From contig NZ_CP155618.1 in assembly GCF_031128465.2 (NCBI RefSeq), positions 1,373,501 to 1,437,500 on the forward strand: a stretch of DNA of 64,000 nt, given 5' to 3'. Every line of letters begins with the position of its first letter. Position 1 is the stretch's first letter. A program made the translations under genes and the position numbers. This stretch comes from Mariniflexile litorale. GTDB taxonomy: Bacteria > Bacteroidota > Bacteroidia > Flavobacteriales > Flavobacteriaceae. Below are positions 40,131-43,100 of the stretch, one piece after another. The notes under the pieces are model-generated. The model saw only the letters and a list, made by a program, of their open reading frames with translations, was not told the origin of the DNA and searched no databases.

Positions 40131-43100
40131 TTAATGTTTTTGAATGTACAATTTGGTATTTACCTCGTCAAACGCAATTTCTATACCACTATCTAATTTA
40201 TCAATAATTTCAAGATTGTCAGTTAGTGTTTCAGCTTTTATATACGACATATTTATATTTATAGCCGTATCAATAAGCGGATTACTTTGCAACTTCACAT
40301 CTATCCTATCTGTTACCTCAAATCCAGAATCTTTTCTTAAATTCTGAATACGATTCACAAGTTCTCTGGCAATTCCTTCTCTTTTTAAATCTTCAGAGAT
40401 AGTAACGTCTAATGCAACCGTTAAATTGCCTTCATTAGCAACTAACCAACCCTCTATATCTTGCGATGTAATCTCTACATCATCAAGGGCTAAAGTTATA
40501 TTTTTTCCATTAACTTTAATATCTAAAACACCATTTTGTTCTATTTTGTTAATATCTTCTGCCGAAAAGTTAGTAACTATTCCCGCAATGGCTTTCATAT
40601 CTTTACCAAAACGAGGCCCTAAAGTTTTAAAATTAGGTTTAATTTGTTTTACTAATATCTCTGAAGCTTCTTCCAACAGTTCTATTTCCTTAATATTCAC
40701 TTCATGTTTTATTAAATCTGAAATCGCTAAAATCTCATCTTTCTGCTGCTTACTCGTAACAGGAATCATGATTTTTTGAAGTGGCTGACGCACTTTTATC
40801 TTTTCTTTAGCTCGTAAAGACAGTACTAAAGACGATATGGTTTGTGCTGCTTCCATTTTGCGTTCTAGACTCTTATCTACAACCGATGCATCATATTTTG
40901 GAAATTCGGCTAAATGGACACTTTCAAAGGCTTCTTTATTAGTTCCTGCATTCAAATCTAAATACAAGCGATCCATAAAGAATGGCGCTATTGGCGCACC
41001 TAATTTTGCAATAGTTTCCATACACGTATAAAGTGTTTGATATGCAGAAATTTTATCTTGTTGGTAATCGCCTTTCCAGAAACGTCTTCTACATAAACGG
41101 ACATACCAATTACTTAAATAGTCTTGAGTGAAATCTGAAATAGCACGGGCTGCTTTAGTTGGCTCATATTCACCGTAAAACGCATCAACTTGCTTTATTA
41201 AAGTATTTAATTCTGAAAGTATCCAACGGTCTATTTCTGGGCGTTCATTTACAGCAATATCCGCTTCAGCATACGTAAAATTATCTAAATTAGCATACAA
41301 CTGAAAGAATGAATACGTATTATAAAGTGTTCCAAAAAACTTACGTTTTACTTCTTCAACACCTTCCAAATCGAATTTTAAATTATCCCAAGGGTTGGCA
41401 TTTGCAATCATGTACCAACGTGTTGCATCGGCGCCATAAGTAGATAAGGTTTCAAAAGGATCGACCGCATTTCCTAAACGCTTAGACATCTTTTGTCCGT
41501 TTTTATCCAGCACCAATCCGTTAGACACAACGTTTTTATATGCAACCGAATCAAAAACCATCGTACCAATAGCATGAAGTGTATAGAACCACCCACGTGT
41601 TTGATCGACACCTTCAGCAATAAAATCGGCTGGATAGGATGTGCCATTATCTATTAAATCTTTGTTTTCAAATGGGTAATGCCATTGTGCATATGGCATA
41701 GAACCAGAATCGAACCAAACATCAATTAAATCGCTTTCGCGGAACATTTTTTGACCTGATGGAGATACTAAAATTACCTCATCAACAATATTTTTATGTA
41801 AATCAATTTTAGCATAGTTTTCTTCGGAATTATTCCCCACTTCAAAATCTTCAAAAATATCTTTTGAAAGTACACCTGCGGAAACTGCTTTTTGCATCTC
41901 GTTTTTCAACTCTTCAACAGAACCAATACAAATTTCTTCTTTACCATCTTCGGTTCTCCAAATTGGCAATGGAATGCCCCAATAACGCGAACGCGACAAG
42001 TTCCAATCGTTGGCGTTTGCTAACCAGTTTCCAAAACGACCTGTTCCTGTTGCTTTTGGTTTCCAGTTGATGGTTTCGTTCAATTCGAACATGCGATCTT
42101 TCACATCGGTTACTTTAATAAACCATGAATCTAACGGATAATACAGAATTGGTTTATCGGTTCTCCAGCAATTCGGGTAACTGTGTTTATATTTTTCAAC
42201 CTTAAAGGCTTTATTTTCTTCTTTTAATTTGATGGCAATCTCAACATCTACCGAACGTTCTGGTGCTTCTCCATCGTTGTAATATTCATTTTTAACATAT
42301 TTACCAGCATACTCAGCCACTTCAGGTCTGAACTTTCCTTGTAAATCTACCAATGGCACTAAATTGCCATTTTCATCTTTAACTAACATAGGTGGCACTG
42401 GAGGTGTTGCTTGCTTAGCAACCAAAGCATCATCAGCTCCAAAAGTAGGTGCGGTATGTACAATTCCTGTTCCATCTTCAGTCGTTACAAAATCTCCAGA
42501 AATGACTCTAAAGGCGTTTTCAGGATTGTCGTTTGGCAAAGCATACGGCAATAATTGTTCGTAGGTGATGCCTACTAAATCTTTACCTAAACATTCACTA
42601 ATTATTCTGTATGGAATTTTTTTATATTCAGCGTTGTAATTCAATAATTCAGCTTCCGTTTCAACCAAATTAAACTTTCCAGCAAATTGGTAACTAACCA
42701 GTTTTTTAGCTAAAATAACATTTACAGGCTCAAATGTATATTGATTGAAAGTTTGAACCAACACATATTCAATTTTAGGCCCAACAGTTAATGCGGTATT
42801 ACTTGGCAATGTCCATGGTGTGGTTGTCCAAGCTAGGAAAAAGAAATCCCCACCCCGACCCTTCACAAAGGGGAGAGAGTTGAGACCGAAAGCTTTGTAA
42901 ATATCGTTTTCGGCTCCCTCTCCTTTGGAGAGGGCTGGGGTGAGGAACTGTGCCACAATAGTTGTATCCGTAACATCTTGATAGGTTCCTGGTTGGTTTA
43001 ACTCGTGCGAGCTTAAACCCGTTCCTGCTTTTGGAGAATAAGGCTGAATCGTGTACCCCTTGTACATCAAATTCTTATTATAAATTTCTTTTAACAACCA

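Follow-up and report, generated by a model that had tools for sequence, protein, structure and literature searches.

What is a palindromic DNA repeat doing inside the reading frame of a synthetase gene, and how could it have got there? The question is raised by ileS, the gene for isoleucyl-tRNA synthetase (IleS), in a stretch of 64,000 nucleotides from Mariniflexile litorale (contig NZ_CP155618.1, positions 1,373,501 to 1,437,500), here called the window; positions are window coordinates unless a genome and contig are named. An original prediction had proposed that a G+C-rich palindrome sits in frame in this gene and had likened it to the Rickettsia palindromic elements (RPEs). The analysis reported here indicates that the ileS block probably belongs to a family of palindromic repeats in Flavobacteriaceae, of which it is an in-frame copy coding for part of a protein, and which would work like the RPEs. 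Handles such as G000 and L099 denote genomes and loci; these two are the M. litorale genome and its IleS.

A palindromic block read through in ileS

The block comprises 98 bp at 42848-42945, with imperfect inverted arms, and is read through in frame (Table 1). Its position, frame and palindromic character had been predicted correctly: the frame is intact, the product matches NCBIfam TIGR00392 (1001.8 bits) and the Pfam families PF00133, PF08264 and PF19302, and the minus strand of 42835-42960 folds as RNA at -54.6 kcal/mol, against a mean of -36.8 kcal/mol (sd 3.9) for shuffles of the same stretch, 0/200 of which were as low (z -4.5). A repeat finder at default settings returned no inverted repeat; the arms are imperfect, and their pairing is visible by folding. 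The arms are stop-free in the frames used, so that a copy can be read through, and the block has terminal inverted repeats, a trait of miniature inverted-repeat transposable elements. Its description as G+C-rich is borne out by a G+C content of 0.54 at 42850-42949 versus 0.29-0.44 in the seven intervals compared that lie clear of it. The end motif CCTCACCCCAGCCCTCTCC, allowing up to three mismatches, occurred once in the window and in none of 100 shuffles.

Table 1. Features of the ileS locus (window coordinates) and loci with nuclease-bearing inserts
Feature	Position	Strand	Remark
ileS, isoleucyl-tRNA synthetase, 1156 aa	40131..43601	-	intact frame with the insert inside
In-frame insert, residues 220-252, LTPALSKGEGAENDIYKAFGLNSLPFVKGRGGD	42846..42944	-	33 residues, native linker displaced
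Left half element (5' arm in the gene), CCTCACCCCAGCCCTCTCCAAAGGAGAGGGAG, encodes approximately LTPALSKGEG	42914..42945	-	
Middle between the arms, encodes approximately AENDIYKAFGLN	42880..42913	-	
Right half element (3' arm in the gene), encodes approximately SLPFVKGRGGD	42848..42879	-	pairs with the left arm
Conserved AWTTTPWT motif, residues 257-264	42810..42833	-	a few residues downstream of the insert, at the editing-domain entrance
DUF559 loci within host genes, Flavobacteriaceae (part of L351-L354, L356, L360, L361, L376-L440)			both MetH sites filled in L411

In all five congeners a 19-residue native linker without the repeat (e.g. KAKQESLPNFLKNEGDIHF) separates AQF from LAWTTTPWT. 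M. litorale has 36 residues there, a net gain of 17; the predicted addition of about 33 residues is thus right for the length of the insert and too high for the gain. Around 16 linker residues before AWTTTPWT are displaced, and by the alignment the insert stands in place of the native linker instead of dividing it. Among named IleS, the closest in the alignment share 86-88% identity with this one; they include those of Confluentibacter citreus (88%) and Flaviramulus basaltis (87%).

An AlphaFold2 model of the M. litorale IleS was built from 55 alignment rows (mean predicted local distance difference test score, pLDDT, 73.9; predicted template modelling score, pTM, 0.61). It places the insert where the chain turns from strand 213-220 to strand 253-259; confidence is low for residues 224-231 and 243-250, and residues 233-237, in the middle of the insert, form a short helix. 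When the solved IleRS structure 8c8w is aligned, the alignment breaks between its residues 210 and 211, in the same turn, where that enzyme has almost no linker. The ileS copy would be translated and tolerated at the entrance to the editing (CP1) domain, as a loop that is modelled mostly at low confidence and contains a short helix. That this position accepts an insert, as had been proposed, is strongly supported by the recurrence of inserts in the family and by valyl-tRNA synthetase (ValS), described below.

Copies of the repeat in the M. litorale genome

The block as a whole has no second full-length copy in the genome, which is assembled as one contig of 4.52 Mb. Its arms do recur: the last 32 bp are found at 90-91% identity in two places and more weakly elsewhere (the best arm copies are 91% over 32 bp and 90% over 31 bp), and the left arm is 91% identical over 32 bp to a copy at the start of a gene that we take, from its motif, to be trpF (L002, G000:C1:2865249-2865280). 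The original prediction had named two grounds against itself, namely an equally long repeat-free linker in close relatives and the absence of other copies. Neither applies: the five congeners have a shorter repeat-free linker, and for the arms, though not for the whole block, there are other copies. The element adjoins the trpF start at L002, and a GTG at or inside its end could act as the start codon.

The core pattern CCTCTCCAAAGGAGAGG, allowing up to three mismatches, matched 38 times (19 per strand, several matches being one palindromic place counted on both strands), compared with 2 and 3 matches for a control pattern. With up to two mismatches there were 14 distinct places, two of them inside genes (ileS and valS) and 12 intergenic or at a gene edge, some of the latter overlapped by short unsupported frames. 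A second pattern added leuS and a radical-SAM gene as hosts. The matches at L162, L164 and L169 (three mismatches, other frames) showed no second arm when read and were set aside as chance; this reading covered the three-mismatch matches other than L161 and six without a locus. Overall, the arms recur in the genome mostly between genes.

In clear copies two small hairpins follow each other in inverted order, similar to the inverted pair with spacer of a REPIN (a doublet of repetitive extragenic palindromic, REP, sequences). We propose that the full element consists of two half elements in inverted order around a spacer, each half with its own small hairpin of the CC-AAA-GG type, and that most copies would lie in short intergenic gaps while some lie in genes, where the frame stays open and the peptide would occupy a surface turn.

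The same IleS site in other genomes

Inserts at the same site were sought in the 80 most similar named IleS records, of which 79 were readable (L061 was dropped, its motif being unmatched). Two-arm inserts were present in L045 (Maribacter flavus), L062, L064 (Flavobacterium ichthyis), L065 (Confluentibacter citreus, genome G312) and L066, and also in L023, with a different middle; L039 and L059 carry half elements. A search of 397 family genomes with a profile of the insert at E 0.01 gave 12 matches, eight of which are two-arm IleS inserts (G000, G130, G139, G142, G229, G267, G312 and G370); the other four are two half elements (L145, L146), an ordinary linker (L147) and a match outside IleS (L144). 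At class level 51/396 genomes matched, and among 30 loci fetched, 19 of them readable, three are inserts from two other families (L253, L254 and L256).

These inserts range widely in the state of the palindrome. It is near-perfect in L141 and L254, decayed in L253, and weak or gone in L140, L142 and L256, whose IleS keep a longer peptide with little pairing. Retention of the peptide after the pairing has gone argues against selection for the hairpin itself. A small hairpin of its own, TCGCTGAAGC...GCGTAAGCGA, lies within the left arm of L138 (G267), which looks like one repeat having entered another.

To place the inserts on a phylogeny, a quick tree of 94 IleS rows was made with the linker columns removed (L137, the same record as L065, was left out). 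The two-arm state required 12 changes for 13 rows, or 15 for 17 when half elements were included, and starred sister pairs with one insert-bearing and one insert-free member were L138/L058, L139/L033, L065/L103, L045/L050 and L062/L088. The M. litorale IleS falls in a starred set of seven, five of which lack an insert. In the pair L138/L058 the DNA is 90-100% identical in ten 60-base windows on each side of a linker that is wholly different, and in 4/6 sister pairs the insert aligned to its sister's native linker no better than shuffles did. The idea that the native linker is kept between the two arms was rejected for most pairs on these grounds. Common descent followed by repeated loss was also judged unlikely, because insert-free sisters keep the short linker KAxxxSLPDFLQNEGDI across much of the tree and losses could not have restored this conserved sequence.

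ValS, LeuS and other host genes

The repeat is also found in paralogous enzymes. In the M. litorale ValS (L112/L156, G000:C1 ~908500-908680) an in-frame two-arm palindrome lies at the place corresponding to the IleS site, before LTIATTRPET. Within the genus, ValS carries the two-arm form in G000 and G002, a half element in G001 and G004, and neither in G003 and G005. A ValS match was obtained in 389/397 family genomes, and the best 30 of the 389 were read: three have two arms (G000, G130, G142), six an extended linker and 21 a short linker. Of the six extended linkers, that of G318 is a clear half element, and those of G124, G180, G260, G267 and G399 retain little or no pairing; the longer, little-paired ValS peptides of L176, L178 and L179 are possible relics. 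All three genomes with a two-arm ValS also carry the IleS insert (P 6e-6, or 3e-4 without M. litorale), and the nine extended ValS overlap with the eight IleS inserts in four genomes (P 9e-6, or 2e-4 without M. litorale); these P values treat unread ValS as insert-free.

Half elements are carried by leucyl-tRNA synthetase (LeuS), a radical-SAM protein and IcmF. In LeuS the half element lies near the C-terminal domain in six genomes (G000, G001, G130, G142, G252 and G312), with further ones elsewhere; in M. litorale (L232, G000:C1:1305500-1310300) it reads SSPPSEGLGEA before LKTLHKTIKKV. A second repeat-like stretch, TGCTGAGCTTGTCGAAGCA, stands in the same protein just before the editing-domain motif VFTTRPDTIFG, where G005 has CATTGCGAGCGAAGCGAAGCAATC; both stretches are presumably common bacterial repeats. 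A right-arm pattern searched in 42 genomes gave 69 matches, 48 intergenic or at gene ends and 21 inside genes (one doubtful): LeuS 6, ValS 5, the radical-SAM protein 5, IleS 2, IcmF 1, a metal ATPase 1 and one unclear. Of these 21, 13 fall in IleS, ValS or LeuS, an apparent preference for class Ia synthetases. The radical-SAM half element occupies one site in five genomes (L323, L247, L315, L327, L332), in the opposite orientation in G001 (L323).

The right-arm pattern was present in 5/7 insert genomes outside the genus versus 3/26 insert-free genomes (P 0.004), in 5/6 genomes of the genus and in 1/3 genomes with half elements only. In G142 and G267 part of the matches are the synthetase inserts themselves, and others remain.

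Nuclease-bearing relatives

Some relatives of the repeat carry a DUF559 domain. In three congeners and G130 an in-frame DUF559 is present at the LeuS site with half elements at its ends, and that of the G001 LeuS was confirmed as PF04480 (118 bits). The domain is present in 187/397 family genomes; among the 150 matches listed, 59 lie in frames of at least 300 aa. The hosts read were LeuS, MetH (at two sites), RecG, HemD, HisD and IleS (L404 and L405, in a loop other than that of the window). Family models identified one example each of LeuS, MetH, RecG, HisD and IleS; HemD, named by motif, is presumably correct. Of 61 in-host rows (three repeat a place and one has an unassigned host), 31 had inverted-repeat ends at no more than 2/200 shuffles and the other 30 failed this test; 3/9 free-standing DUF559 genes also passed it. 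Some MetH cassette ends, for example CAGCCCCCCAACCCCCAAAGGGGGAGCT, look like the arms of the IleS inserts in L062, L065 and L254. In the leuS of G370 (L402/L415) a tandem half-element peptide, EGSNLNPEVPSGR..., stands beside the DUF559 cassette, in a stretch that partly reads N.

A family-domain search found no DUF559 match in M. litorale, whose insert of 33 residues contains no endonuclease frame. Among the IleS that were read, none has DUF559 at the window's site. Pfam matches of five DUF559-bearing proteins (L233, L405, L411, L361 and L391) included no splicing domain, and PADLOC returned nothing for the DUF559-bearing LeuS of G001.

How the insert may have arisen

Taken together, these results are consistent with a selfish or passive palindrome that would be kept in a coding frame where the protein does not mind. 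Presence and absence between close relatives speak for the mobility that the original prediction had assumed, although no mover was found; we infer that the repeat is mobile and that the insert is neutral for the enzyme. Within IleS there would be a second route. The arms vary by lineage, and the middle [N][SD][IV]xKAF is common to inserts of distant genera in three families. A profile of the insert alone, run on 16 genomes, gave good E-values in IleS only, and together with the shared middle this suggests that the IleS unit may spread as a linker allele and not by transposition each time, which the original prediction had not anticipated: the common middle implies that the unit has been passed on as such, probably by recombination between nearly invariant flanks, and the lineage-specific arms imply that the resident repeat supplies new arms or that insertions happen repeatedly. 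These steps of allele recombination and arm renewal we infer from the pattern of shared and variable parts. In the same search the IleS insert of G554 went undetected and that of G229 scored just E 0.10, which means that the profile would overlook diverged copies elsewhere. A weaker match in G002 is an element with another middle between ruvC and hemW, both named by motif. This element at the gene junction (L291, contig 21) lengthens both frames, giving a new RuvC tail and a new HemW N-terminus.

Several observations weigh against a mobile palindromic family as the source. No transposase could be tied to the repeat: at 6/7 Y1_Tnp loci of the M. litorale genome, scanned with one hairpin rule, no such hairpins lie within 1.5 kb. 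No target-site duplication was recognised, the insert/no-insert junctions, inspected by eye, having no clean empty site because the native linker is replaced. The KAF middle is convincing only in IleS, which a freely transposing element would not predict. In 2/6 sister pairs the insert aligns with the native linker above most shuffles (13/1000 as good for L099, the M. litorale IleS, with L101, and 118/1000 for L062/L088), leaving some doubt as to whether some native linker residues have been retained in these two proteins. The 26 control genomes for the right-arm pattern were hand-chosen rather than random, and 2/7 insert genomes (G139 and G370), in which the inserts are decayed, lack that pattern. 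The IleS model is of middling quality by both of its scores. Finally, 29/91 inner branches of the quick tree are starred, making the number of changes approximate, and the count cannot separate gain from loss; the changes may be gains, losses or exchanges.

The first alternative is that nothing transposes in ileS and that an old palindromic linker variant is passed between species by homologous recombination across the nearly invariant flanks. Besides the shared middle, it is favoured by the alignments: inserts from distant genera mostly score much higher against one another than an insert does against its sister's linker. However, the arms are lineage-specific, with the left arm in M. litorale matching a resident repeat (L002), the middle of L023 differs, and ValS, LeuS, IcmF and other genes hold the repeat in other surroundings. 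Exchange as the whole explanation is therefore plausible yet on balance somewhat improbable, and it is partly contained in the mobile-family reading preferred here, in which recombination between highly conserved flanks would also carry the ileS unit along as a linker allele while its arms turn over with the repeats of the resident genome, or insertion recurs.

A second alternative sees the insert as the remnant of a homing cassette: DUF559 with palindromic ends would copy itself in frame into fixed sites, and the ileS insert would be a nuclease-less mini form that once travelled with the nuclease or is served in trans. The in-frame DUF559 domains of the six host proteins, with similar half elements at the ends that were read, the inverted ends in about half of the in-host rows and the likeness of MetH ends to IleS arms all agree with this, as does the use of one insert site in distant lineages and its absence in sisters; a replaced linker with intact flanks is also what homing repair could leave. 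However, M. litorale has no DUF559 match, the domain is not significantly enriched in genomes with the IleS insert (6/8 versus 181/389, P 0.11), it was not seen at the window's site in any IleS, about half of the in-host rows fail the end test while some free-standing genes pass it, and half elements also occur singly and between genes. A homing origin, although compatible with the mobile palindromic family, is thus doubtful. Its broader form is equally tentative: a selfish element of Bacteroidota might home into protein genes without splicing, DUF559 and palindromic ends entering surface loops of core enzymes, with the ileS and valS copies as mini forms. The host protein would then carry the nuclease as a passenger domain, and versions without it would persist as peptides.

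Movement of an inverted pair by a Y1-type REP transposase (a REP-associated tyrosine transposase, RAYT), as for REPINs, was also considered. The element is an inverted pair of small hairpins with a spacer, and the genome encodes three Y1_Tnp proteins in 195-aa frames (L133-L135), which we take to be RAYT-like in size. The hairpins of the element are nevertheless absent from the vicinity of the Y1_Tnp genes scanned, and REPs and REPINs are known as extragenic; a RAYT as mover has no support from these scans and we regard it as quite improbable. Three further Y1 transposases of the genome are of IS200 type, with equal scores (L129-L131; L129 and L130, the two that were read, encode the same protein). 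That a G+C-rich linker folds by chance, or that the block is an assembly artefact, is suggested only by the single full-length copy and is extremely improbable given the shuffle test, the one-contig genome, the arm copies elsewhere and the comparable inserts that other genomes have at this site.

Relation to known systems

Of the known elements, the RPEs are closest in mode of action. RPEs are palindromes of 105-146 bp that lie between genes and in frame inside conserved proteins; they are reported in frame in 19 reading frames and tolerated by guanylate kinase (PMC2229807; see also PMC2996958). The repeat described here shares with them a palindrome (98 bp, just under the RPE range), a long hairpin, intergenic and in-frame copies, and a host protein that tolerates the insert; it is in frame in several unrelated conserved proteins (IleS, ValS, LeuS, the radical-SAM protein and IcmF), so that the parallel drawn by the original prediction holds for the way the element works. 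It differs in belonging to another phylum (the nearest named IleS relatives are from Flavobacteriaceae, not Rickettsia), in its G+C-rich two-half architecture and nuclease-bearing relatives, and in reusing one site in many genera, plus the corresponding site of a paralogous enzyme. By analogy, the family may be filed as working like the RPEs, on its mode of action rather than on sequence kinship.

Other comparisons were less close. Like REPs and REPINs, the element is an inverted pair of short hairpins with a spacer, dispersed in one genome; unlike them, it has copies inside genes and no repeat-flanked RAYT at the 6/7 Y1_Tnp loci scanned. The enterobacterial ERIC/RU-1, RU-2 and RU-3 elements and the 107-bp NEMIS of Neisseria, as described in PMC2229807, are also small inverted-repeat elements with an open frame fused in frame to genes, whereas here no target-site duplication was recognised and the site preference is another; this comparison is by description. 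The DUF559 relatives resemble homing endonuclease cassettes, such as inteins and group I introns, in being nuclease domains in frame in conserved proteins at recurring sites, and differ in that the five DUF559 proteins tested have no splicing domain and the window copy has no nuclease.

Rfam returned four hairpin matches, all below threshold (at most 30.9 bits, where the gathering score is 95). A sub-threshold match to whalefall-1 RNA at 42914-42947 on the plus strand (17.3 bits, gathering 37, E 0.063) is possibly chance or a related palindrome. In the literature searched, which covered few subscription journals, neither such inserts in Flavobacteria nor DUF559 domains within these enzymes were described. 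An in-frame palindromic element of Bacteroidota would therefore be new relative to that literature, with the RPEs as the nearest precedent.

What the repeat may mean for its hosts

Related repeats in core proteins, some with DUF559, point to a family of protein-invading selfish DNA. Protein-coding palindromes have been described in Rickettsia and a few others, and Bacteroidota now give a readable set that spans a repeatedly filled site, paralogous sites, the passage from fresh palindrome to decayed peptide, and nuclease-bearing relatives. For annotation it matters that the IleS insert, like DUF559 in LeuS, MetH or RecG, is probably a passenger rather than a functional domain of its enzyme. With this set one can test by what route repeats enter proteins, and whether the peptides they encode are ever turned to use by the host enzyme.

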